In this document: positions 1-9,781 of the stretch, one piece after another
Layout of the letters: the number at the start of each line of letters is the position of its first letter
How positions within the stretch are numbered: the stretch's first letter is position 1
Source: Thermoleophilaceae bacterium
Lineage (GTDB): Bacteria; Actinomycetota; Thermoleophilia; Solirubrobacterales; JACPNS01
Assembly: GCA_016463365.1 (NCBI GenBank)
Contig: JAEMRJ010000090.1
Span: 1-9,781, forward strand
Direction: 5' to 3'
Length of the DNA stretch: 9,781 nt
Made by a program: the position numbers and the translations under genes
The notes under the pieces: generated by a model
Databases searched by the model: none
Seen by the model: only the letters and a program-made list of their open reading frames with translations
What the model was told of the DNA's origin: nothing

Positions 1-2
1 TC

Positions 3-1244
3 GTCAACCTCTACCCCTTCCAGCGCTTTGCCAACCGCCGCGGCGTCTCCGACGCTGAGGTGCTTGAGCAGATCGACATCGGCGGACCGACCATGGTCCG
101 CGCCAGCGCGAAGAACTACGAGTTCACCGGCGTCGTCGTCAGCCCCGAGAGCTACGACGCCGTGCTTGATGAGCTCGGCGAAGAAGACTGCATGCTCGGT
201 CTCGAGACGCGCGAATCGCTCGCGGTCGACGCCTTCAACTACACGGCGCAGTACGAGGCTGCGATCAGCACGTGGTTCAACGAGCGCTCCGGCAATGTTC
301 CCGACCAGTTCGTGCGCGCCTACGAGAAGCAGATCGATCTGCCCTACGGCGAGAACCCGCACCAGCGTGCTGCCTATTACGCCGAAGTCGGCACCCGCAC
401 TGACCTGCTGAGCATGGTCAGTCAGGAACAGGGCAGGGAACTTTCCTACAACAACCTTCTGGATCTCGACGCTGGTCGGCGCCTGATCGAAGAGTTCGAG
501 CTGCCCACCTGCGTGATCCTCAAGCACAACAACCCGTGCGGAATCGCGATCAGCGCGACGCTCGAGGACGCCTACCTGAAGGCGCTGCACACCGACCCGC
601 TCTCGGCGTTCGGTGGCATCTACATCTACAACCGCGAGGTCGACGGATCGCTCGCGGCAAAGATGATCGAGAACTTCGTCGAGCTGGTCTTTGCGCCGGG
701 TTATACCGAGGAGGCGCTCGAAATCTTCGCGGCCAAAGAAAACCTGCGTGTGCTGGTCAACAACGAGCGCCGCTTCTGGCCGGTCTCAGACCCTGACCTG
801 CGCGGCGTGCGCGGCGGGCTGCTGCTGCAGGACCGCGACGTCGACATCGACCCGCGTGAGGCGATGCAGGTTGTAACTCAGGCCCACCCGTCAGAGAAGC
901 AGTGGGGCGACCTGCTCTTCACCTGGCGCGTCTGCAAGCACGTCAAGAGCAACGCGATCGTGATCGGCAACGACCTGGCGACGCTGGGCATCGGAGCGGG
1001 TCAGATGAGCCGCGTGGACTCCGTGAAGCTTGCCGTGAAGAAGGCGCGGGCCGACCTGACCGGCGCCGTTCTGGCCGGCGACGCATTCTTCCCGTTTGCC
1101 GACGGCCCCGAGTACGCGATCAAAGCCGGCGTCACGGCGATCATCCAGCCGGGTGGGTCAAAGCGCGACTCTGAAGTCGTGACAGCCTGTGACGAAGCTG
1201 GAATTGCGATGGTCTTCACCGGCCGCCGTCATTTCCGCCACTAG
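3..1244 (+). CDS. purH: Bifunctional AICAR formyltransferase / IMP cyclohydrolase (PurH), 5' end missing
   Basis: PurH catalyses the last two steps of de novo IMP synthesis in the cytoplasm: formyl transfer from 10-formyl-THF to AICAR, then ring closure to IMP. The reading frame is open from the left edge (first full codon at base 3), and 413 residues are visible of a protein usually about 520 long, so roughly the first 100 residues of the N-terminal cyclohydrolase (MGS-like) domain lie outside. Visible signatures are VNLYPF at the very start, DIGGPTMVRASAKN (end of the cyclohydrolase domain), and the transferase motif KHNNPCG with the catalytic Lys-His pair at visible residues 174-175. DPLSAFGG, LRGVRGG, SNAIVIGND, GAGQMSRVDS, GDAFFPFADG, IQPGGSKRDSE and the family's usual C-terminus FTGRRHFRH follow. 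The gene ends 12 bases before the end of the convergent operon. No frameshift or missing catalytic residue is seen. Identification is secure. Confidence 0.98.
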   Translation, partial: VNLYPFQRFANRRGVSDAEVLEQIDIGGPTMVRASAKNYEFTGVVVSPESYDAVLDELGEEDCMLGLETRESLAVDAFNYTAQYEAAISTWFNERSGNVPDQFVRAYEKQIDLPYGENPHQRAAYYAEVGTRTDLLSMVSQEQGRELSYNNLLDLDAGRRLIEEFELPTCVILKHNNPCGIAISATLEDAYLKALHTDPLSAFGGIYIYNREVDGSLAAKMIENFVELVFAPGYTEEALEIFAAKENLRVLVNNERRFWPVSDPDLRGVRGGLLLQDRDVDIDPREAMQVVTQAHPSEKQWGDLLFTWRVCKHVKSNAIVIGNDLATLGIGAGQMSRVDSVKLAVKKARADLTGAVLAGDAFFPFADGPEYAIKAGVTAIIQPGGSKRDSEVVTACDEAGIAMVFTGRRHFRH

Positions 1245-1283
1245 CCGAGCGCGGTTTCAGGGGACGTCAAACTCCTGGCTCGG
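1245..1283. terminator. Possible bidirectional hairpin between convergent genes
   Basis: The 12-base gap between the two convergent stop codons begins an imperfect hairpin. Its outer arms are CCGAGC (1245-1250) and GCTCGG (1278-1283). Its inner arms are CAGGGG and CTCCTG, with one G-T wobble and an 8-base loop. Most of it lies inside the last codons of the minus-strand gene. There is no T-run on either side, so factor-independent termination is doubtful. It is listed because convergent genes this close need a stop signal somewhere. Confidence 0.25.
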
Positions 1284-2567
1284 ATCGGTACTGGGCTTGG
1301 GCGGCTTGGGCTTTGGCTTGGGCTTCGGTTTCGGGGCAGGGGCGGCCGGTGCCTGCGGCTGGACAATGACCGGTGCCTGCGGCTGAACCTGCGGCGTCCT
1401 CGCCACGGCGTTGGCGCGAGCGGCCCTGCGGGCGGCGGCGCGAGCACGGGCACGCGCACGCGCACGGGAGCGGGCACGGGAGCGGGCACGGGCGCGGGCC
1501 GCGCGGCGAGCCTCAGCGCGGCGCGCTGCTGCCTTCGCCTTGAGCGCGGCTCTTGCCTGCGCGGCCCTGGCTTCAGCAGCACGCGCGGCTGCGGCTGCTG
1601 CTGCCTCGGGACTCTGCGCAGTGCTCAACGCAGCCTCTTCGTCAGCACCGAACTGGCCCGTCAGCGCGAACAGGCCGAGGATCACCGCCGCCACGACGCC
1701 GGCGAGTATGGCCATCCGTCGCCCGCGGCCAAATTTCGGCGCGTCAGCAGACTGCGAAGGTTTTGTGCGGAGCGGGCTTGGGGCGCGGCGCGCGGCATCG
1801 GTTGTGACGGTGGCCACGCCAAGGCTTACGCTGCCGGTGATCGCCCGCAGCATCGTGCCGGTGGGATTTGTGATCGCGGTCAGGCCGCGCACGCCGATCG
1901 CGTGCCGCCTGCAACCGGGGCAGTCCTTGACGTGGGCGAAGGCACTGCGGTACTCACCTGAGCGCGGATCGAGCACGCCCAGCGCATACTGATTGATCAG
2001 CGGCGCAAGTTCTTCGCAAGGCTGGCCCTCCGGGACTGGTTCGAGGACCGTTTCGAGTTCTTCGATCACATCCCCGAGCAGTCCGGCAATGCGGAACGCC
2101 CCGACGCCCACCACGTCGGCCGCGTCAAAAGCCTTGAATCCGTATACGAGACACAACGTCACCGCCTGCAACTCCCGCTGGTTCAGCGTCGCGCGCATGC
2201 GCGCAGAAAACTCGCGCTGTAGGCGTTGTTGTTCCGGCGTTTCTTCGATCGGTGCTGCGATACCGACCGCCTCGATCACCTCGGCGTCCATGCGCGTCTC
2301 GGGGTGAAGCACGCGGTGCTCGTCGACGGCCTGCCGACAGGTGGACTCGGTCAGCAGCCGCTCGATGTTCTCGATCTCGCCGCCGGCCCAGCGTCGCGAG
2401 AAGATGCCGTGCCAGGCGCGGTTGTAAAAGGTGTCGATGTCGCGCGCCGCAAAATCGATGCCCTCTTTCGCGAGACGGTCGTGGGCCGCGCGCGAAACAT
2501 CGTTGCGGTATTTCGCGTACTCGTCGCCGATCGTGTAGTCGGCCTGGTTCTGGGCCATCGCGCTCAT
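1257..2567 (-). CDS. ECF-sigma-like / zinc anti-sigma fusion membrane protein, downstream paralogue
   Basis: 436 residues from ATG 2567, which overlaps the upstream stop as ATGA; a second ATG at 2558 is possible. Residues 41-90 resemble sigma region 2 and end in a degenerate 'CRQAVDEHR' where active factors have 'RRAIDE.R'. Residues 125-172 resemble region 4 (LNQRELQAVTLCLVYGF), but the expected recognition helix is almost without basic residues. Residues 184-222 form a zinc anti-sigma domain, with likely ligands C184, H212, C216 and C219 (HxxxCxxC). A single membrane segment at about 285-304 follows a basic GRGRR stretch. Then come an Ala/Arg-rich segment (321-390) with an R-A dipeptide run, a Pro/Lys run (PKPKPKPKPKPPKP) and the tail QEFDVP. 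It is a paralogue of the gene at 4253-5428. Inference: a membrane-tethered regulator with sigma and inhibitor in one chain, possibly no longer DNA-binding. Domain calls are by eye from motifs, and membrane topology is uncertain. Confidence 0.8.
   Translation of the reverse strand: MSAMAQNQADYTIGDEYAKYRNDVSRAAHDRLAKEGIDFAARDIDTFYNRAWHGIFSRRWAGGEIENIERLLTESTCRQAVDEHRVLHPETRMDAEVIEAVGIAAPIEETPEQQRLQREFSARMRATLNQRELQAVTLCLVYGFKAFDAADVVGVGAFRIAGLLGDVIEELETVLEPVPEGQPCEELAPLINQYALGVLDPRSGEYRSAFAHVKDCPGCRRHAIGVRGLTAITNPTGTMLRAITGSVSLGVATVTTDAARRAPSPLRTKPSQSADAPKFGRGRRMAILAGVVAAVILGLFALTGQFGADEEAALSTAQSPEAAAAAAARAAEARAAQARAALKAKAAARRAEARRAARARARSRARSRARARARARAAARRAARANAVARTPQVQPQAPVIVQPQAPAAPAPKPKPKPKPKPPKPSTDPSQEFDVP
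1431..1499 (-). repeat. Low-complexity Arg-Ala coding repeat
   Basis: This GC-rich repetitive stretch encodes residues 357-379 of the downstream sigma-like protein, mostly alternating Arg-Ala with two Ser substitutions. It contains a 12-base unit AGCGGGCACGGG in two perfect tandem copies (plus-strand 1469-1480 and 1481-1492), next to GCACGG/GCACGC hexamers. Such tracts are prone to slippage, so copy number may vary between strains. Confidence 0.75.
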
Positions 2568-4162
2568 CGGCGCACCAACACCTGCACCGGCGCGCTTGCC
2601 GTACCGGGCCACGGCCAATCCGGCTTCGCGAGCACGGCGGCGCGGAACGTGAACAGCGTCGGGCGAGTGACCCGCTTGAACCGGTACCGCCACTTGTAGC
2701 TGCCGCGCGGATCGGTCTGTACGAGCGCGACGCGGCTCCATCGCCTGCCGTTCTTCACCTGGATCTCGACCGGCACTGCGGCCGCCGCGCGGCCGGCTCC
2801 GGACAACCGGCCGGCGACCGTCAGTTGAGCGCCGCGGCGAAGCTTCGCCTCGGAGCGACGCGCGCTCAGCGCAATCTTCTGACGAACGGTGGTTGACGCC
2901 GTCGCGATGCTCTGGGCGCCGGCTGAGGGGCGGAAAGTGAACGTGATGCGCAGCGCGCCATTCGGTTTCACCTTGAAGGCGAACGCTCCGTCGGCGTCGG
3001 TCTTGACCGACCCGAGACGGGTGGAAGTCTCGGCTGCCGCGCCGACGCTCGTCGCCGTCACCTCAAGGGTTGCGCCGCTGATCGCGCGACCGGAGCTGGT
3101 GCGCAGCACGCCGGCCACCGAAACTTTGCGGGTGGACCGGACTGAGATCAGCGGCTTTAGCGTCGTGAGCGCCGGAGACTCGCCCGCCGGGAGGCCGTTT
3201 GCGTCCACACCGCCGACCGTGAAGGTGATCGGTGCCAGCGTGCCGAGATTTCCGGCGGCGTCCACCGCGGTCACCACAGCAGAATGAGTACCGACCGACA
3301 TCGATCCAAGGTCGAGCGAGAAGTTCTGAGAACTGATCAGCGGGCATGGCGCAGCCTTGGTGTAGGGCGTGCTGCACGAGCCCCCGCTGTCCCTGCTCGC
3401 GACCGGCGCTCCGTCGACGCTGAGCGTGACGTTGCGAATTCCGCCGCCGATGTCAGTCGCCCAGACGTCCAGCGTGCGCAGCGCGGGCGCTCCGCCTGCG
3501 CCCGGGAGCGTGCCACCGGTCAGTGCCACCACCGGCGCGGTCAGATCCTTCAGGTCAACACGCGAATCAAACAGCCGCGTACGCAATGTCGTGAAGCCTC
3601 CGGATGCGCAGACAGCTGAAGTCTGCGCGCACTCAACGCCCAGTTGCAACTGGCTTGCGGTCAGACCCGCCGACTGCGTTCCGCTCGGGGCGATCTCGCA
3701 GTCGGACTCGACTGCCTCGCATTCGCCCGAGTAGCTGCTGACCGAGTTGACGGTGCGGCGAAGGCCGACGCTCAGTGCAGGGTGGTCGCCGTCGGGCGCA
3801 AACACGACGCTCGCCGACCTGCGTACCGAATAGCCAGAAATCGTCGTGCCGACCGGCGCGTCAAAGCGCAGACCGGCGTTCTCACCGGCGAGCAGCTCAA
3901 GACCGCTGACGGCGACAACCGAGTACTCAGAGCACTGGGGACCGAGGCTGAACGACACAAAGTGAGCGAGGTTTGAGAGGTGAGGGACCCAGGCCTCGTC
4001 GCCAAGAACCTCTCCCGAAGGGCCCTCGCAGCTGTAGACGCTGTAGGTGCCCGCCGACGCGCCGCCCGCCATCACCGCGCCGCCCAGAAGCGCAGCGACC
4101 AGCGCCGCGAGCCATATTGGCGCGCGCCGACCATTAAAGGTTGTTCGCCAACCGTCAGACAT
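2564..4162 (-). CDS. Secreted multi-domain beta-rich protein, downstream paralogue
   Basis: 532 residues from ATG 4162. That start has an AGGGAG ribosome site 8 bases upstream, whereas the in-frame GTG at 4171 would directly abut it. A basic N-terminus and hydrophobic stretch (about residues 14-33) ending GGASA before GTYSVYSC form a signal peptide, so the protein should be exported. The mature part has an uncharacterised N-terminal domain with YSVYSC and GTTISGY motifs (about 38-205), then an Ig-like beta-sandwich (about 208-317; APVVALTGG, LDVWATDIGGG, VDAAGN). A carboxypeptidase-regulatory-like segment follows (about 345-425; GRAISGATLEV, TDADGAFAFKV), then a final beta domain with GSYKWRYRF and PDWPWPG. 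All eight cysteines are in the N-terminal half, at 45, 77, 148, 155, 178, 185, 263 and 273, which suggests disulphides. It is a paralogue of 5981-7600, and its stop overlaps the next start (ATGA), so it is probably translated together with the sigma-like membrane protein. No catalytic motif or sorting signal is seen. Inferred role: envelope sensor, ligand or adhesin partner. Confidence 0.82.
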   Translation of the reverse strand: MSDGWRTTFNGRRAPIWLAALVAALLGGAVMAGGASAGTYSVYSCEGPSGEVLGDEAWVPHLSNLAHFVSFSLGPQCSEYSVVAVSGLELLAGENAGLRFDAPVGTTISGYSVRRSASVVFAPDGDHPALSVGLRRTVNSVSSYSGECEAVESDCEIAPSGTQSAGLTASQLQLGVECAQTSAVCASGGFTTLRTRLFDSRVDLKDLTAPVVALTGGTLPGAGGAPALRTLDVWATDIGGGIRNVTLSVDGAPVASRDSGGSCSTPYTKAAPCPLISSQNFSLDLGSMSVGTHSAVVTAVDAAGNLGTLAPITFTVGGVDANGLPAGESPALTTLKPLISVRSTRKVSVAGVLRTSSGRAISGATLEVTATSVGAAAETSTRLGSVKTDADGAFAFKVKPNGALRITFTFRPSAGAQSIATASTTVRQKIALSARRSEAKLRRGAQLTVAGRLSGAGRAAAAVPVEIQVKNGRRWSRVALVQTDPRGSYKWRYRFKRVTRPTLFTFRAAVLAKPDWPWPGTASAPVQVLVRR

Positions 4163-4170
4163 CGAGTGCA

Positions 4171-4176
4171 CTCCCT
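4171..4176 (-). promoter_or_regulatory. Ribosome binding site deciding the start at 4162
   Basis: AGGGAG on the minus strand lies 8 bases before ATG 4162. It overlaps the alternative GTG at 4171, which therefore has no usable spacing. The choice is supported independently: with this start all eight cysteines have the same residue numbers as in the paralogue at 5981-7600. Confidence 0.7.
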
Positions 4177-4200
4177 GAACGCGCGGTCGTGGCCGAGTGC

Positions 4201-4224
4201 CGAGTACCGCGTACGGAGAAGTTA
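4201..4224 (-). promoter_or_regulatory. Promoter-like element in the gap between cassettes (tentative)
   Basis: The 90-base gap before the downstream secreted gene carries, on the minus strand, TTAAC, then 16 bases, then CTCG, ending about 38 bases before ATG 4162. The same arrangement (TAAC-N16-YTCG) occurs before the upstream secreted gene at 7621-7644. ECF sigma promoters typically have an AAC-containing -35 box and a CG-rich -10 box about 16-17 bases apart, so a self-regulated promoter is conceivable. The match is short and was picked after the fact. A small inverted repeat GTAC-CGC-GTAC (plus-strand 4204-4214) lies within it. Confidence 0.2.
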
Positions 4225-4252
4225 ACCGACCCGATCGCGGAGCGCAACCGAA

Positions 4253-5428
4253 CTACTGCAGATCGAACTCTTCGCCGGCATCCTCTGAAGGTTCGCTCGG
4301 CGCACTCTGCTGCTGCGGCGCAGGTGCCGGCTCGGGCGCAGGCGGTGCCACCGGAGGAGGCGCTGCTGCTGCCTGCGGCGTGACGTCTGGTTGTTTCGTG
4401 GCAGACTTCCGTTTCTTGGCCGCGGCCCTACGTTCCGTCGCACGCTCAGACCTGGCAGCCGGCGCCGCGCCCTCGGAGCCCTGACTGACCGGGGCCCTCG
4501 CCGGAGGGTCGTCTTCGCCCGAAAGCTGATTGGCGACCACAAATCCGCCCGCGGCAACCGCCGCGACTGCAGCCACGACAGCGGCCGCCTGCGCCGCGCC
4601 GCCGATTCCCGCGCTGCTGCCCGCAGCCGCGCCGCCACCGGCAGAAGAGCTGGCCGCAGCTGCTCCAGCCGCACCAGCGCCAACTGCCGCTCCGGTCAAC
4701 GCAACAAGCATCAAGGCGCTGGGGATCGTCACGGCCGTCAGGCCGCGCGTGCCGATCACGTGACGACGGCAGCCGGGACAACCGTCAAGGTGCTCGACCG
4801 CTTCGCGGTAATCAGGCCCGTCGGGATCGAGTGCGCCGAGCGCGAACTCATTGATGAGCAGCGCGCGGTCTTCGCACCAGGTGCCCTGTTTGATCGAGGC
4901 GAGCACCGGGCGCATCTTGCGGGAGACCTCGTCCATGATCTTCTCCATGCGCTTCGGTCGCACGCCGACCTGCTGGGCAGCCTCGGGCCGCGACATGCCG
5001 TACACGTAACAGAGCGTGGCCGCCTGCAGTTCCCGCTGATTCAGTGACGCGCGCATGCCCTCGACGAAGTGCCTGAACTCCTGCTGCTGGTCGAGCGTCT
5101 CTTCGACCGGATTGTCGACGCCCAGCGTTTCCAGCACGACCGGGTCGGCCTGACGGTCGGGGTGCAACGTGCGGTACTCGTCGATCGCCCGGCGGTAGGT
5201 CATCTGGACCAGAAGGCCCTTGCGGTTCTCGATCTTCTGGCCGTCCTGAAGCTTTGTGTAGAGGCCGTACCAGGCCTGGTTGTAGAAGCCGTCCATGTCC
5301 AGCTCGGCGAAGCGGATCTTCGATGCCGCGAGCTTTCCGGCGACAGTGCGCGTGACCTCATCTTTGAACGCGTCGTACTCGGCGCCGATCACCTGATCGG
5401 CGTCTGTGGCGCGCGGGAGGCTACTCAT
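4253..5428 (-). CDS. ECF-sigma-like / zinc anti-sigma fusion membrane protein, upstream paralogue
   Basis: 391 residues from ATG 5428, which overlaps the preceding gene by 8 bases; no clear ribosome site is seen, so coupled translation is likely. Residues 42-90 resemble sigma region 2, with 'QMTYRRAIDEYR' near the end. Residues 126-173 resemble region 4 (LNQRELQAATLCYVYGMSRPEAAQQVGV) and keep a basic recognition helix (R157, K159, R160, K163, R170, K171). Residues 185-224 form a zinc anti-sigma domain with likely ligands C185, H213, C217 and C220. Two Ala/Gly-rich hydrophobic stretches (about 237-258 and 278-301) follow; the second is the better membrane segment and matches the single one of the paralogue. 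The tail is basic (RRAAAKKRKSATK), then Pro/Ala/Gln-rich, ending GEEFDLQ. Known: zinc anti-sigma domains normally sit in a separate protein and hold an ECF factor inactive. Here both are in one chain, suggesting a self-inhibited, membrane-tethered factor (inference). Ligand, release mechanism and target promoters are unknown. Confidence 0.82.
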   Translation of the reverse strand: MSSLPRATDADQVIGAEYDAFKDEVTRTVAGKLAASKIRFAELDMDGFYNQAWYGLYTKLQDGQKIENRKGLLVQMTYRRAIDEYRTLHPDRQADPVVLETLGVDNPVEETLDQQQEFRHFVEGMRASLNQRELQAATLCYVYGMSRPEAAQQVGVRPKRMEKIMDEVSRKMRPVLASIKQGTWCEDRALLINEFALGALDPDGPDYREAVEHLDGCPGCRRHVIGTRGLTAVTIPSALMLVALTGAAVGAGAAGAAAASSSAGGGAAAGSSAGIGGAAQAAAVVAAVAAVAAGGFVVANQLSGEDDPPARAPVSQGSEGAAPAARSERATERRAAAKKRKSATKQPDVTPQAAAAPPPVAPPAPEPAPAPQQQSAPSEPSEDAGEEFDLQ

Positions 5429-5984
5429 GCTCGGTGCTGCCCGCGATCATGAACAGTGCCACGCTCGCTCCCAGTGCGTCGGCGATGTGGCCGGGGACGC
5501 CCATCCTGTCGGCGGGGGCGCAGGCGAGCGCCGCAAAGATGCAGGAGGCCGTGCGGCGCGCCAGCGCAATACATTCGCCACCGGCTCGCAGGCCGTCAAA
5601 CATCGGATCGCGGTCGTCGCTCATCACCAGCTCCGTGGCGTCGAGTGCGTCGGCGATCCAGACTTCCGGGTCGTATCCGGTGTCGCGCGCGTGGATCTCG
5701 AGTGCCCGTGCCGTCAGCCGGGCAACCCCCGCCGCAGCGCTGCGCAACAGTTGAGCATGCTCGTGCGCCTCAGGCGACGCTTCGAAAATCTGCGCGATCA
5801 TCGCCAGATCCACCGTTGCGTCGCCGGCCAGGCAGAGCAGATCCTGAGTACTGCAGATCGCCTCGGACTCGTAGGAAGTGCCGGTGAAGCGTCCGCCGAC
5901 GGCGATCGCGGTGCCGTGGGCCTGGGCGATCGCGTCGCGACCGTGCCGGCCAAGCTCGACAACTGCGCGCTCAAACGGTGTCAT
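5421..5984 (-). CDS. Uncharacterised 187-residue helical cytoplasmic protein
   Basis: Not recognised. It starts at ATG 5984, overlapping the upstream stop as ATGA, and ends 8 bases inside the next gene, so it is embedded in the operon and probably co-translated. GGTGG lies about 5 bases before the start. The protein looks largely alpha-helical and alanine-rich, with no signal peptide and no convincing membrane segment. Notable stretches are the N-terminal FERAVVELGRHGRDAIAQAHG, a central SPEAHEHAQLLRSAAAGVARL helix, the acidic MSDDRDPMFDG and a C-terminal IADALGASVALFMIAG. Cysteines are at 44, 51, 138, 148 and 155. It sits exactly where the sigma-like gene begins in the other cassette, which has no counterpart of it. 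Position suggests an accessory or regulator of the adjacent sigma-like protein, but nothing in the sequence shows a function. It is believable as a gene because of its tight overlaps at both ends and its length. Confidence 0.8.
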   Translation of the reverse strand: MTPFERAVVELGRHGRDAIAQAHGTAIAVGGRFTGTSYESEAICSTQDLLCLAGDATVDLAMIAQIFEASPEAHEHAQLLRSAAAGVARLTARALEIHARDTGYDPEVWIADALDATELVMSDDRDPMFDGLRAGGECIALARRTASCIFAALACAPADRMGVPGHIADALGASVALFMIAGSTEHE

Positions 5985-7600
5985 CGCGCCACCAACACAT
6001 GAAGCGATCTGCTTTTCTCGGTCGGCCAAGGCCAGGATTTGTTCCTGCGCACGATCGCTCGGAACGTGAAGCGGGTTGCCCGCTTGACGCGGGTGAACCT
6101 GTACCTCCAGCGGTAGCTCCCGCGCGAGTTGGCTTCGACCACTCCAACTGCCCGCCAGGACCCGCCGATCAGAGCGTCGATCTCGATCGGCGCACCGTCG
6201 GCGGCCGCGCCTGCTCCGTCGAGCGCGCCGGCCAGCGTGAGGCTGCCACCCGGCTTGACCCTTGACTTCGATCGATTGATTGAGAGTGAGAGCGCTTCGC
6301 GAACGACTGTGGCGGAGATCGCCGTGCCGATCGAGGCCGGATCTGGCCTGAAGAGAACGCTTATGCGGCTGACTCCGTGAGGCTTGATGCTCAGCGAAAA
6401 ACCGCCAGTCGGCGTGGTGGTGGTGGTCCCGATCGACTTCGGGACGGCGTTGAAGACGCCCAGGTCCAAGGATGAGACTTCGAGCACCGCGCCGGCGATC
6501 GGCGCGCCCTGCTGCGTGGTCAGGGTGCCTTCGACCAGAACACTCCTGCCGTTCTTGGATGCGATCACCGACCTGCTGGTCCTGACGATCGGCTGCTGGA
6601 CGGCGGGCGAGCCGTTGCTGGGAATCGTCCCGGCTCCGGGCGCGCCGGCGCTGACGCTGAAGCTGAAGCTGTACGGAGCACTGGATGTGCCCGCAGCATC
6701 GATGGCGGTGAGCGTTCCAGTGTGCACGCCGGCGGTCAGCGTGGCTGTGTTGACGCTGAGCGTGCGCACCAGGCCCGAGGGGCACGGCGCCCGCATGATG
6801 TAGGGCTGACCGCAGCTTCCGCCCGCCGCGCTGCTCTGTTGGAGCGCGCCGTCGACCGCAAGATTGATCGTCCGGACTCCGCCGCCGACGTCGGTCGCCG
6901 TCACGTCAAGCGTGTGGGTGCCGGCGGCCGCGTCTGATCCGGGCAACGATCCTCCGACTGAAGCGATCACCGGCGCCGCCGGATCCTCAACATCCACGCG
7001 GGCGTTCTGCAGCTGCGCCGAAAGCTTGGTGAAACCGCCCGGCTGACAGTCGCCGAGCAACCCATCACATCGGATACCGACGCTGAGACTTGTCAGGGCG
7101 AGGCCGTTGCGCGTGACAACTGCGGGCGCAATCATGCAGTCGGCGATCACCTGCGAGCAGCCGAAGACGCCGGTGACGGCGTCGGTCGTCTCGCGCACGC
7201 CGGCGGAGAGCGTCGGCGGAGTTGAGCCCACAGCAGGGTAAGAAACGTCGACTGCGCGGGTCAGCTGGTAGCCGCTGATGGTGGTTCCGGGCGGCGCATC
7301 AAACACCTGATCGGCACCGTCTCCGGCGGCGAAGCTGGCCGTCGGCGACGCGGAAACGCTGAGATCACCGCAGTTGGCGCCGAAAGAAAAGTCAAGGGCC
7401 TGGCCGGGCGTGATCACTGCGGTGGTCCAGGCAGAGTTGGGCAACGGCTCGGCGGTCGGACCCGAGCAGCTGTAGACGCTGTAGACCGCCGCGCCGGCCG
7501 TGCCCGGCCCTGCTGATGCGAGCGCGCAGAGCATCACTACGACGACGAACGTCATCCGCGTCGCGAAACAAATGTTTATCGATCGAACCTTGATCCCCAT
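5981..7600 (-). CDS. Secreted multi-domain beta-rich protein, upstream paralogue
   Basis: 539 residues from ATG 7600, the first gene of the operon, with a weak GAGAG ribosome site 6 bases upstream. An alternative ATG at 7555 would keep the hydrophobic core but has no ribosome site. The hydrophobic stretch MTFVVVVMLCALASAG followed by GTAGAA before VYSVYSC is a signal peptide. The domain order matches the paralogue at 2564-4162. An uncharacterised N-terminal domain (YSVYSC, GTTISGY; about 38-205) is followed by an Ig-like sandwich (about 208-318; LDVTATDVGGG, AIDAAG). A carboxypeptidase-regulatory-like segment (about 350-430; GAPIAGAVLEV, TPTGGFSLSI) and a final beta domain with GSYRWRYRF and KSWPWP come last. 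Mature-region cysteines at 45, 77, 148, 155, 178, 185, 263 and 273 have the same numbers as in the paralogue. Its stop overlaps the next gene (ATGA). No enzyme motif or wall-sorting signal is seen. Inferred role: extracellular partner of the membrane-tethered sigma-like protein. Confidence 0.82.
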   Translation of the reverse strand: MGIKVRSINICFATRMTFVVVVMLCALASAGPGTAGAAVYSVYSCSGPTAEPLPNSAWTTAVITPGQALDFSFGANCGDLSVSASPTASFAAGDGADQVFDAPPGTTISGYQLTRAVDVSYPAVGSTPPTLSAGVRETTDAVTGVFGCSQVIADCMIAPAVVTRNGLALTSLSVGIRCDGLLGDCQPGGFTKLSAQLQNARVDVEDPAAPVIASVGGSLPGSDAAAGTHTLDVTATDVGGGVRTINLAVDGALQQSSAAGGSCGQPYIMRAPCPSGLVRTLSVNTATLTAGVHTGTLTAIDAAGTSSAPYSFSFSVSAGAPGAGTIPSNGSPAVQQPIVRTSRSVIASKNGRSVLVEGTLTTQQGAPIAGAVLEVSSLDLGVFNAVPKSIGTTTTTPTGGFSLSIKPHGVSRISVLFRPDPASIGTAISATVVREALSLSINRSKSRVKPGGSLTLAGALDGAGAAADGAPIEIDALIGGSWRAVGVVEANSRGSYRWRYRFTRVKRATRFTFRAIVRRNKSWPWPTEKSRSLHVLVAR

Positions 7601-7620
7601 CTCTGACTCTCAAACACCCG

Positions 7621-7654
7621 CGAAGGGCAATTGGTGTGCCGTTAGAAAACTAAC
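7621..7654 (-). promoter_or_regulatory. Probable promoter/operator region of the five-gene operon
   Basis: This is an AT-rich island in GC-rich sequence just before the first gene. On the plus strand it includes the perfect inverted repeat GTTAG-AAAA-CTAAC (7641-7654). On the minus strand it includes CTAAC, then 16 bases, then TTCG, ending about 20 bases before ATG 7600. The same TAAC-N16-YTCG pattern lies before the second secreted gene. No good housekeeping -35/-10 pair was found here, which fits, but does not prove, use of an alternative sigma factor. Confidence 0.3.
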
Positions 7655-7920
7655 TGCCGGCCGCCGCCGGAGGCACGCACCCAAGTATCGCGACAATACA
7701 GTGGGTGAAGCGTGATCCGGTGGACGGCTGGCAGCCGCGTCCCCATGGCGAATGTGCACATGCGCTCTGACCCAAGGGGTCCCGATCGTCCGTGAACAAG
7801 CGCTCGCGCGTAGAGCAGTCCTGGCCGGGGCGAAGTCTGCCTGAATTCGCCCTGCCCGTCAACGCCGAAATCTGCGCCGGAGCCCCCCAGCGCATTGTTG
7901 ACGTGCTCTGAATCGCCACG

Positions 7921-7984
7921 TTACGCGCGGGACTTCCGACCGACCCCGGGGGATTGCCGAAGTTGTCGGTCTCCACGCGCGTAG
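7921..7984. other. Long imperfect hairpin in intergenic DNA
   Basis: Arms ACGCGCG (7923-7929) and CGCGCGT (7976-7982) pair perfectly. Inside them GGA pairs with TCC, and GACCGAC (7938-7944) pairs with GTCGGTC (7965-7971) around a 20-base loop. That gives about 17 Watson-Crick pairs with a 5-base bulge on one side and a 1-base bulge on the other, and a further pair or two at the base. A competing pairing, ACTTC (7932-7936) with GAAGT (7959-7963), exists. It could be a terminator, a small RNA or an mRNA leader structure on either strand; no T-run follows. Arms of this length are unlikely to be trivial, but GC-rich DNA makes some pairing expected. Confidence 0.4.
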
Positions 7985-8050
7985 TTGCGTGTCTGAAGCA
8001 CTGCTCCAGAGAGTTGCTGTGAACGTCATGTTTCACACTTACATGTCGCA

Positions 8051-8071
8051 GGGGGCGGCAACATTCCCCCC
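8051..8071 (-). terminator. Possible terminator of the MerR gene
   Basis: GGGGG (8051-8055) and CCCCC (8066-8070) form a strong 5-pair stem with a 10-base loop, starting about 13 bases after the stop codon of the MerR gene. It lacks the T-run of a classic intrinsic terminator, so the call is tentative. Confidence 0.3.
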
Positions 8072-8083
8072 TCCCCGAGCAGA

Positions 8084-8908
8084 TCAGCGCGTGCGCGAGC
8101 GGCGACCGGCGGATCGCTTTGCCTTGGGCTCTGCGGGCTCTTGCTCGGCCCGCTTGTTGCCGTTGAGCTTGACGTCTTCTTTGGCGATCCGACGAAGGAT
8201 CTTGCCGAACGCCTCTTCGGCAGCCGTGTCCATGTTCACCCGGAATGAAGCCATCACCGTGTCGCTGGCCAGCGGACGCAGGCCCTCGATCGCCTCGATG
8301 ACCCGCGGAAAACTTTCCGGCGGAAGGCCGGCCTTCTCCTGTGGACGAACGACGCCGGTGTCGACGAGTTTCGTGAACACCTCTGCGATCGCGCGGGTGT
8401 GATCATTGACCTTCTTGAAGACATCGAACAGGGTGTCGACCGGTACTCCGAGCTCGAGCGCGCGGATGCCTGCGCGCAGAAGCGTGGGGCTGAGCACCTC
8501 GTAGCGATCTGAGCCGAGCGGAATCACGAAGCCGAGGTCGATCGCCTGTTTGATCATGCGCGAGTCGATCTCGCCGATGTGTTCGGCGATCTCGGCGAGC
8601 GTCATCACCTCGGATGGCTCTTCGGCGAACGGCGTGAGCACGAGATTGCGCAGGTCGCCGATGTTGTCGCCGGTCTCTTCGGCGCGCTCAACGAGGCGCT
8701 GAATCGCCGTCAGATTGAAGCCGCCCGCCTGCAGCTGCTGAATCAGTTCCAGCCGCGCCATGTGGCGGTCGCCGTAGTACCCGATTCGTCCCTGGACCTC
8801 GGGTGCTGGTAGCAGTCCGCGGGACTGATGGGCGCGGATATTGCGGACCGTCATGCCGGTCTGCTGTGCGAGTTCGTCGATCGTGAGTTGGTCTTTTGGC
8901 TGGGCCAT
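8084..8908 (-). CDS. MerR-family transcriptional regulator with a second MerR-like domain
   Basis: 274 residues from ATG 8908; AGGA lies about 10 bases upstream. Residues 8-75 are a typical MerR winged helix: LTIDELAQQTGMTVRNIRAHQSRGLL, then GYYGDRHMARLELIQQLQAGGFNLTAI. Residues 102-165 repeat the same plan in diverged form (MTLAEIAEHIGEIDSRMIKQAIDLGFVIP, YEVLSPTLLRAGIRALELGVPVDTLFDV). Helices run to about 242, and the C-terminal 30 residues are Lys/Arg/Glu-rich and probably disordered. Small effector domains or metal-binding cysteines, as in classical MerR proteins, are absent: the protein contains no cysteine. MerR proteins bind inverted repeats between the -35 and -10 boxes and twist the DNA to control transcription. 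The repeat at 8937-8963, between this gene and a divergent membrane-protein gene, is the obvious site, implying autoregulation plus control of the neighbour. The inducer is unknown. Confidence 0.93.
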   Translation of the reverse strand: MAQPKDQLTIDELAQQTGMTVRNIRAHQSRGLLPAPEVQGRIGYYGDRHMARLELIQQLQAGGFNLTAIQRLVERAEETGDNIGDLRNLVLTPFAEEPSEVMTLAEIAEHIGEIDSRMIKQAIDLGFVIPLGSDRYEVLSPTLLRAGIRALELGVPVDTLFDVFKKVNDHTRAIAEVFTKLVDTGVVRPQEKAGLPPESFPRVIEAIEGLRPLASDTVMASFRVNMDTAAEEAFGKILRRIAKEDVKLNGNKRAEQEPAEPKAKRSAGRRSRTR

Positions 8909-8917
8909 TGTGCGGAA

Positions 8918-8947
8918 ATCCTATATCCAGGACAGAGTTGCATGAAA
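8918..8947 (-). promoter_or_regulatory. Candidate promoter of the MerR gene
   Basis: On the minus strand TTTCAT (plus 8942-8947) is followed after 18 bases by TAGGAT (8918-8923), or after 16 bases by TATAGG (8920-8925). Either resembles a housekeeping promoter. The first -10 lies 9 bases before ATG 8908, so the transcript would be nearly leaderless. The -35 box overlaps the inverted repeat at 8937-8963, so a bound regulator would affect this promoter. Confidence 0.4.
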
Positions 8948-8963
8948 CATGGATTCATGTAAC
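8937..8963. promoter_or_regulatory. Inverted repeat, probable MerR operator
   Basis: Arms GTTGCATGAA (8937-8946) and TTCATGTAAC (8954-8963) are complementary at 9 of 10 positions with a 7-base spacer. The repeat lies in the 63-base gap between the divergent MerR and membrane-protein genes. Its centre is midway between the plus-strand -35 and -10 boxes, which is the usual MerR placement. Confidence 0.65.
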
Positions 8964-8965
8964 AT
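8938..8965 (+). promoter_or_regulatory. Candidate promoter of the membrane-protein gene (leaderless)
   Basis: TTGCAT (8938-8943), 16 bases, then TAACAT (8960-8965), resembling a housekeeping TTGACA/TATAAT promoter. Transcription would begin about 7 bases after the -10 box, at or beside the A of ATG 8972. That fits the lack of any ribosome site and suggests a leaderless transcript, which is common in actinobacteria. The boxes are part of the inverted repeat. Confidence 0.5.
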
Positions 8966-8971
8966 AGCCGG

Positions 8972-9781
8972 ATGACATTTGAACTTTTTTCCACCGTCCT
9001 TGCAGCAGCAGAAGCCGCCCCGCCAGCCGGAGGCGCCGCGTTCAAGGAGATCATCATCGCGACGGTCATGGGAGGTCTTGCGTTCGGTGGCGTGGTGCTC
9101 CTTGCGCTCGGACATCGCGCCGGCAAGATCACATGGCTGCAGACGGTGGGCGACTTCGCCGGACGGCAGCTGAGCCTGCCCGCCTGGACCGCACTTCCGC
9201 TGGTCGTGCTGACCGCTTCGCTCCTGTGCGCCGTCTTCGGGCTCTACTGGGACATCTCGCTGCACCTTTCAGAGGGGCGTGACGAAGGGCCGCTCGCCAA
9301 CCCGTCGCACTACTTCATCCTCGTCGGACTGCTGGGGACTTTCTCGGCAGGCGTGCTGGCGCTGACCATGCCCACGCCCGGCACCAGGCCGAGCCCGTGG
9401 GCCGTTCGCCTTGCCGAAGGCTGGTACGCGCCGGTCGGCGGCATCCTGATCACTGTTTCAGCTGCCTTCGGCCTCGCCGGGTTTCCGCTGGATGACTTCT
9501 GGCACCGCATGTTCGGGCAGGACGTGACGCTCTGGGGTCCGACTCATCTTCTGATGCTCTCTGGTGCCGGGCTCTGCCTGATCGGCGCGTCCGTGCTGCT
9601 GGTCGAGGGCGGCCTCGCCGCCGACCGCCAGCGCGGCGATCGCGAAATGACCAGGAAGGAGCGGCTCGACCGCACCGGCCGCCGGGCGATGTCTGCCGGC
9701 GGACTGCTGATCGCGCTCGGGATCTTCATGGGCGAGTTCGACTTCGGCATCGCTCAGTTCCAGCAGGTCTTCCACCCGTTG
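8972..9781 (+). CDS. Polytopic membrane protein with repeated His/Asp motifs, 3' end outside window
   Basis: The frame is open from ATG 8972 to the right edge: 270 residues are visible and no stop is reached. TAA occurs in frame just upstream (8960-8962), so ATG 8972 is the first possible start. Membrane segments are likely near residues 25-47, 73-93, 115-132, 153-170, 190-211 and 240-256. Between them polar motifs recur: WDISLH (93-98), GRD (102-104) and PSH (111-113), then DDFWH (174-178), GQD (182-184) and PTH (190-192). A third related stretch follows, EFDFG...QVFHP (255-269). Conserved His and Asp at membrane edges suggest metal or haem binding, or proton/ion handling, but I cannot name the family. 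A charged loop (RQRGDREMTRKERLDR, about 219-234) separates the last two visible helices. It is divergent from, and probably controlled by, the MerR-type regulator. It is clearly a real coding region by its regular hydrophobic pattern. Confidence 0.88.
   Translation, partial: MTFELFSTVLAAAEAAPPAGGAAFKEIIIATVMGGLAFGGVVLLALGHRAGKITWLQTVGDFAGRQLSLPAWTALPLVVLTASLLCAVFGLYWDISLHLSEGRDEGPLANPSHYFILVGLLGTFSAGVLALTMPTPGTRPSPWAVRLAEGWYAPVGGILITVSAAFGLAGFPLDDFWHRMFGQDVTLWGPTHLLMLSGAGLCLIGASVLLVEGGLAADRQRGDREMTRKERLDRTGRRAMSAGGLLIALGIFMGEFDFGIAQFQQVFHPL

Follow-up and report, generated by a model that had tools for sequence, protein, structure and literature searches.

What does a secreted protein contribute when its gene is kept, twice, beside the gene of a sigma factor tethered to the membrane? 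This question is raised by contig JAEMRJ010000090.1 of a Thermoleophilaceae bacterium (assembly GCA_016463365.1), of which positions 1 to 9,781 were analyzed; this whole stretch, with a guanine-cytosine content of 66%, is called the window in the following. Read from right to left on the minus strand, it carries the genes S1, M, T1, S2, and T2, where S1 and S2 encode secreted proteins and T1 and T2 membrane-anchored proteins with a long tail. An earlier reading of the DNA letters, here called the original prediction, had named the two S and the two T frames, all of which are present where it placed them, and had proposed a duplicated module with S as the outside partner of a one-chain sigma/anti-sigma receptor. 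Our answer, to which we assign a probability of roughly 0.55, is that each cassette encodes a split envelope receptor, in which S would be held outside by the end of the T tail and the sigma part held inside until its proteolytic release. The observation leading to it, a conserved peptide built around Glu-Phe (EF) at the C-terminus of the tail, had escaped the original prediction.

Among 101 T homologues, the window's own included, 96 carry EF[GDSE] (in one case EYA) within the last 14 residues, and exactly two residues follow the EF-x triplet in 81 of these 96. Considering only T frames with a stop and a profile score of at least 150, the strict motif is found in the last 12 residues of 36 out of 48; the duplicate rows L059 (identical to L010) and L063 (identical to L008) were omitted from these tail-end counts, with loci and genomes being cited by our own L and G numbers. 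Coding-like frames number 1,648 in 0.8 Mb of G205, and only four of them, none resembling T by eye, have the motif in their last 12 residues, which makes it unlikely that such an end is a commonplace of proteins in this class. In-frame matches to a DNA pattern for EFGFE followed by a stop were not used as evidence, the 10 of 26 lying in frame being what chance gives from the gap lengths (4/10 in frame). The reversed pattern had no match in 199 genomes. Weight was given instead to the features of the ten in-frame proteins, six of which show a membrane segment on a simple scale; four pattern matches have an S match from the class survey no more than 1.3 kb away. L152 and L153 represent a further kind of anchor, being EFGFE-ended single-pass proteins with a common stretch REVYRVY ahead of the membrane segment and no Pfam match.

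An independent test of the association between this peptide and S came from 40 further S loci. Thirty-eight of them were chosen roughly by rank from the S survey, blind to the motif and not beside a surveyed T, and formed the test set; L195 and L202, known beforehand to carry the motif, were excluded from it. The counts comprise every stop-to-stop frame of 60 residues or more, and a frame was considered upstream if located on the same strand with its stop between 60 bases inside and 300 bases before the aligned S start. EF[GDST] stands in the last nine residues of 8 of the 81 frames just upstream of S versus 4 of 3,116 others (p = 5.5e-11, a value overstating independence because some rows, such as L170 and L171, are close relatives). 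Over all 40 loci, the respective numbers are 10/87 and 4/3,308 (p = 6.7e-14), and none of five control tripeptides was enriched upstream of S (p at least 0.12). Three of the four EF frames counted as "other" turned out to be same-strand neighbors of S as well (L164, after S; L166, 0.9 kb after; L191, 0.8 kb before), and the fourth runs antisense inside the S gene of L171. Altogether, S has an EF-tailed neighbor in 11 of the 38 loci, or in 12 when the variant ending of L190 is counted.

By their translations, four of these 12 partners belong to the sigma or zinc anti-sigma type (L172, L190, L191, L198), two of them with a membrane segment. The other eight (L164, L166, L169, L170, L171, L189, L193, L194) possess one membrane segment, a tail of 93-162 residues, and no recognizable sigma domain; a Pfam scan of L170, L189, L193, and L194 gave no match, the remaining four sigma-less partners being judged by eye, and L195, outside the 38, had no Pfam match either. 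A protein search with the sigma-less anchor L193 returned one near-identical protein only, so that anchors of this type diverge quickly or are sparse. Since relatives of S adjoin EF-tailed and mostly sigma-less membrane proteins, S would dock on the tail, and the outer module would be a separate secreted protein; for the same reason, the EF motif appears to follow S rather than the sigma domain. The proposed role of S as outside partner is thus backed by gene association, including membrane partners without a recognizable sigma domain, while the binding itself we infer.

Extension of the analysis toward the T family showed how regularly the two genes travel together. A scan of genome contigs with this family gave 22 loci. 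Across 399 genomes of the class, T matches at E <= 1e-10 were detected in 59 and S matches in 92, counts that are lower bounds, as few candidates per genome were scored (four for T, three for S, and seven for S at 1e-20). Both are present in 31 genomes, corresponding to 31/59 versus 61/340 (p = 6.5e-8, kinship uncorrected). After removal of the above-mentioned duplicates and of L062, a near-repeat of L060, 57 T rows remained, and in 21 of them, the window's two included, S lies upstream on the same strand, either directly or via M. These labels were set by hand, with L070 and L078 having S close by in another orientation. The paired rows include Conexibacter, Patulibacter, and Solirubrobacter, and the conservation of the gene pair in related genomes, one of the points on which the original prediction was to stand or fall, was thereby found. 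Among seven weaker T relatives (profile score 60-150), three (L086, L087, L088) adjoin S in other gene orders. In 19 genomes chosen for a T without same-strand upstream S, S relatives were detected in 18 at E <= 1e-5 and in 17 at E <= 1e-20, compared with 67 of 199 class genomes at the latter threshold, a comparison tilted toward the split receptor because all candidates were scored in the 19 genomes and seven each in the 199. These S relatives would fit a partner encoded away from T.

Trees of S and T, calculated from the clean domains of 21 matched rows, agree in their main groups and disagree in the order within L058/L022/L064, in the placement of L006/L008, and in how the three closest species are arranged. 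In both trees, the tandem copies found in the window, L001, and L057 group together, as do, separately, those of G192 (L064), where the S-T cassette was duplicated in tandem independently. The window's duplication may have come before or after the split from L002 (85/64 in the T tree, no order in the S tree). Because both trees give the same main groups, the S-T pair is, judged by its phylogeny, inherited and duplicated as a unit, as had been proposed. In parallel, T genes without adjacent S were seen downstream of an apparent sugar-nucleotide dehydratase gene (L013, L016, L017, L018, L021; by eye), a neighborhood that hints at surface polysaccharide. The T of L012, from a contig titled Chlamydiae bacterium, groups with the T of metagenome bin L020 inside the Solirubrobacterales rows of a larger T tree, and hence the L012 bin may be mislabelled or contaminated.

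Profiles, invariant residues, and the predicted structure agree on the domain order of T1, namely sigma region 2, sigma region 4, zinc anti-sigma domain, membrane helix, and tail. Having regions 2 and 4 and no further sigma region, T1 is built as an extracytoplasmic function (ECF) sigma factor. Against the NCBI sigma70-ECF profile it scores 31.4 bits (E = 1.3e-7; cut-off 42.9), a profile also matched at E <= 0.01 by 70 of 72 aligned T relatives. Pfam gave no match for T1 itself at E <= 0.001; at this threshold, the 72 relatives yielded Sigma70_r4_2 in 15, Sigma70_ECF in 10, and zf-HC2 in two cases, and zf-HC2 stayed below its cut-off of 22.2 bits in T1 (16.6 bits) and T2 (15.3 bits). A zinc anti-sigma motif consists of H-x3-C-x2-C and an upstream Cys or His. 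T1 contains it as H213, C217, and C220 together with C185; across the 72 relatives, the residues of H213-x3-C217-x2-C220 never vary, and C185 is kept in at least 90%. A Foldseek search with the T1 model listed sigma factors or transcription complexes in 49 of the best 50 matches, none of them at E <= 0.001. Between three species, region 2 is the most conserved part of T1 (95-98% identical), followed by region 4 (84-93%), whose recognition helix retains its basic residues, and the low-complexity outer tail varies (40-61%).

The paralogue T2, sharing 166 of 388 aligned residues with T1, has diverged. No sigma profile of Pfam or NCBI reached E <= 1 for it, its sigma similarity is visible only by alignment with T1, and its region 4 recognition helix has lost basic residues, with the zinc motif kept. 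Its sigma region 4 is 66-72% identical between species, its final 10 residues are identical at 10/10 positions, and the last 14 are identical in three species, the underlying DNA changes being synonymous. The T2 tail (1260-1658) holds 29 Lys/Arg in 133 residues, many as alternating Arg-Ala runs, and could bind wall polyanions. T2 is probably not a working sigma factor. The original prediction had assigned the full series of sigma region 2, sigma region 4, zinc domain, membrane segment, and tail to both paralogues, and for T1 this holds. Domain searches returned sigma and anti-sigma similarity, and a sigma factor and its zinc anti-sigma domain within one membrane-anchored chain are supported, with profile scores under the curated cut-offs; the assignment weakens for T2.

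S1 and S2 are equally confirmed as paralogues, with 213 of 528 aligned residues identical. Each has one N-terminal hydrophobic stretch and is predicted to be secreted, and a hydrophobicity scan revealed no membrane segment besides the signal peptide. Of the announced eight cysteines, S2 has exactly this number, and S1 matches it position by position, with two extra ones in the first 25 residues; across 53 aligned S relatives, each of the eight is either invariant or conserved to at least 90%. The AlphaFold model of S2 is all-beta and confident (mean predicted local distance difference test 89.4). Fold searches with this model, the second covering residues 208-532 only, retrieved tandem beta-sandwich proteins of many kinds, generic matches with none pointing to a ligand. 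As to a possible carbohydrate-binding or adhesin function of S, its Pfam matches to Ig-like and CarboxypepD_reg-like families are weak and under the cut-offs, and the relatives of S are mostly annotated as hypothetical or without name in their source records.

From these data we infer S-tail binding, proteolytic release, the signal, autoregulation, and the role of T2 in the following scheme. T1 would be a membrane-tethered ECF-type sigma factor restrained by its own zinc anti-sigma domain, with a disordered tail reaching to the outer side of the membrane and ending in the docking peptide EEFDLQ. S1, a disulfide-rich beta-sandwich protein predicted to be secreted without an anchor, would be held at the cell surface via this peptide and would be the part meeting the outside, be it a wall polymer or a ligand. 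A change in S or in the tension of the tail would lead to cleavage of the membrane segment and to release of sigma2-sigma4, and the freed part would transcribe the cassettes and other targets. T2 would no longer read promoters and, judged from its residues, is most likely an anchor or decoy for S2. The step of proteolytic release is modeled on IutY and on what has been anticipated for ECF48, ECF52, and ECF53 (PMC8999054). As a tentative generalization, which we rate slightly short of even odds, EF[D/G/S]-x may be a general outer docking tag in Thermoleophilia; single-pass anchors with long disordered tails would capture beta-sandwich proteins of the S family, and one branch would be wired to a fused sigma/anti-sigma part reporting their loading or loss to transcription.

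Several observations weigh against the split receptor. An EF-tailed neighbor is missing in 26 of the 38 S loci and a same-strand upstream S in 36 of the 57 T rows, many of which are still EF-ended; in both sets, some contigs end close by. On the simple scale, two of the 12 partners (L190, L198) lack a membrane segment, and of the 19 genomes without adjacent S, G379 lacks S altogether and G222 has only weak S matches. The presence/absence counts are confounded by kinship. On the side of the peptide, 12 of the 48 T frames miss the strict motif (two ending in EFAPG, one with the motif further in, nine without it), and the last ten residues of T1 are identical at 7-8/10 positions between species, no better than other parts. 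Furthermore, a second, weaker hydrophobic stretch at residues 238-256 of T1 means that the tail could turn back inside.

The alternative that survives best reads the EF end as a tag for another outer factor, for example a PDZ-type or tail-specific protease starting sigma release, or a wall component, with S merely being made together with T. Ligands of proteases that read carboxyl ends are expected to carry their motif at the extreme C-terminus, and the two-residue spacing in 81/96 homologues places it there. The motif also persists in T proteins without an adjacent S gene, and the sigma/anti-sigma fusion IutY is processed by Prc and RseP (PMC8999054). Against this stands that sigma-less EF-ended membrane proteins adjoin S too, i.e., the motif tracks S, and we consider such a tag unlikely.

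A lower chance still is given to T being an ordinary ECF52-type receptor and S its target gene, kept adjacent for co-expression without any contact. Sigma genes commonly adjoin their targets, and in the window, L001, and L057, every S gene (6/6, three genomes) has the element GTTA[AG][CT]TT at a distance of 86-96 bases ahead of its first aligned residue, out of a total of nine occurrences in 546,082 bases (both strands, S-paired loci). This element may be the target site of T1, a role qualified by the fact that the upstream regions of S1 and S2 are also related by duplication. However, the remaining S-paired loci showed no copy of it within 330 bases of S, and the tail end is kept in 96/101 homologues though the tail varies. 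S relatives also pair with EF-tailed membrane proteins that gave no sign of a sigma domain, which makes S as a mere target gene less likely, and we regard this explanation as quite improbable. That both paralogues keep their sigma part as a relic, T1 and T2 serving only as anchors for S, agrees with the lost basic residues of T2, with the membrane partners lacking a recognizable sigma domain, and with T1 profile matches under curated cut-offs, but is hardly credible given the conservation of regions 2 and 4 and the basic recognition helix of T1.

The coordinates of all features are collected in Table 1. The picture of T directly following S with overlapping genes applies to the second cassette, where the S2 stop and the T2 start share ATGA at 2564-2567; in the first, M intervenes, overlapping S1 by 4 and T1 by 8 bases. 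M is present in eight loci, window included, with relatives between S and T in L001, L002, L003, L007, L009, and L057 and after T in L004; L007 is the locus of a cultured species, Conexibacter arvalis DSM 23288. No membrane segment and no family match (Pfam, NCBI profiles) was found for M, which is probably a cytoplasmic third component of cassette 1. On the S1 side, the cassettes are flanked by a MerR-like gene (8908-8084) and, beyond it, by a membrane-protein gene (8972-9781, judged by eye); on the other side, the plus-strand frame at 3-1244 is presumably the 3' part of purH. The order of the window (membrane protein, MerR-like, S1, M, T1, S2, T2, purH) recurs in L001, a locus of a Thermoleophilaceae metagenome-assembled genome with a T2-purH gap of ~3.2 kb, and L057 (G137) likewise has S1, M, T1, S2, and T2. 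A single S, M, T set adjoins purH in L002.

Table 1. Features of the two S-T cassettes, with positions counted within the window
Feature	Position	Strand	Description
S1	5981-7600	-	539 residues, signal peptide, eight conserved cysteines; all-beta multi-domain by analogy with the S2 model
M	5421-5984	-	187 residues, between S1 and T1; matches no known family
T1	4253-5428	-	391 residues; ECF-type sigma2-sigma4, zinc anti-sigma domain, membrane segment, 92-residue tail
T1 sigma region 2	5153-5326	-	residues 35-92; from alignment
T1 sigma region 4	4895-5077	-	residues 118-178; helix-turn-helix, basic recognition helix intact
T1 zinc anti-sigma domain	4739-4882	-	residues 183-230; C185, H213-x3-C217-x2-C220
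T1 main membrane segment	4532-4588	-	residues 281-299
T1 conserved C-terminal peptide EEFDLQ	4256-4273	-	
S2	2564-4162	-	secreted paralogue of S1, 532 residues
T2	1257-2567	-	436 residues; diverged T1 paralogue; zinc motif and tail end retained, region 4 recognition helix short of basic residues
T2 sole membrane segment	1659-1715	-	residues 285-303
T2 conserved C-terminal peptide QEFDVP	1260-1277	-	
GTTAGTTT element, upstream of S1	7647-7654	-	candidate promoter element
GTTAACTT element, upstream of S2	4219-4226	-	candidate promoter element

If S does bind the end of the tail, the cassettes would encode a sigma receptor that senses the outside through a distinct and exchangeable secreted protein, retained by a peptide some six residues long. 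The same tag would then mark out a group of surface proteins with their anchors in this bacterial class and provide a function for a secreted protein family mostly annotated as hypothetical or unnamed.

Among known systems, RsgI/SigI consists of two separate proteins with a SigI-type sigma factor, its sensing part being fused to the anti-sigma factor and not secreted, and for IutY we know of no EF-ended tail or S partner. In Clostridium thermocellum, the membrane-bound RsgI anti-sigma factors act as substrate sensors and undergo cleavage by RseP (PMC12203970), and IutY of Pseudomonas putida (ECF243) resembles T1 as a sigma factor fused to a membrane anti-sigma factor and processed by Prc and RseP. 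Unlike T1, it answers the siderophore aerobactin in iron cell-surface signalling (PMC8999054). ECF48 and ECF53 are closer, combining the sigma factor with a fused zinc-finger anti-sigma domain, one or two membrane helices, and an expected release by proteolysis; the accessible part of their description mentions neither a secreted partner gene nor a conserved tail end (PMC8999054). The original prediction of an undescribed system therefore does not hold for the one-chain fusion, and since ECF48, ECF52, and ECF53 are already known (PMC8999054, PMC5826349), the novelty does not lie there. Among the papers listed by searches of the open-access literature, which leaves most subscription journals outside, none describes the EF end or the S-T pairing, and no work on ECF signalling in this class was found.

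The closest likeness is to ECF52, represented by SCO4117 of Streptomyces coelicolor, in which an ECF sigma factor, a zinc finger (pfam13490), a membrane segment, a proline-rich tail, and a carbohydrate-binding module are fused (PMC5826349). By this described order, T1 too is a single chain of sigma domain, zinc finger, membrane segment, and proline-rich tail. The carbohydrate module is split off by a stop codon in S. clavuligerus, possibly a sequence error according to the authors (PMC5826349). ECF52, as described there, ends in this module, whereas T1 and T2, in which no carbohydrate-binding Pfam domain was detected at E <= 1, end in EEFDLQ and QEFDVP, and their beta-rich outer protein comes from a separate secreted gene. 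What is new compared with these systems is the conserved EF tail end and the presence of S relatives beside other EF-ended membrane proteins, most of them sigma-less.

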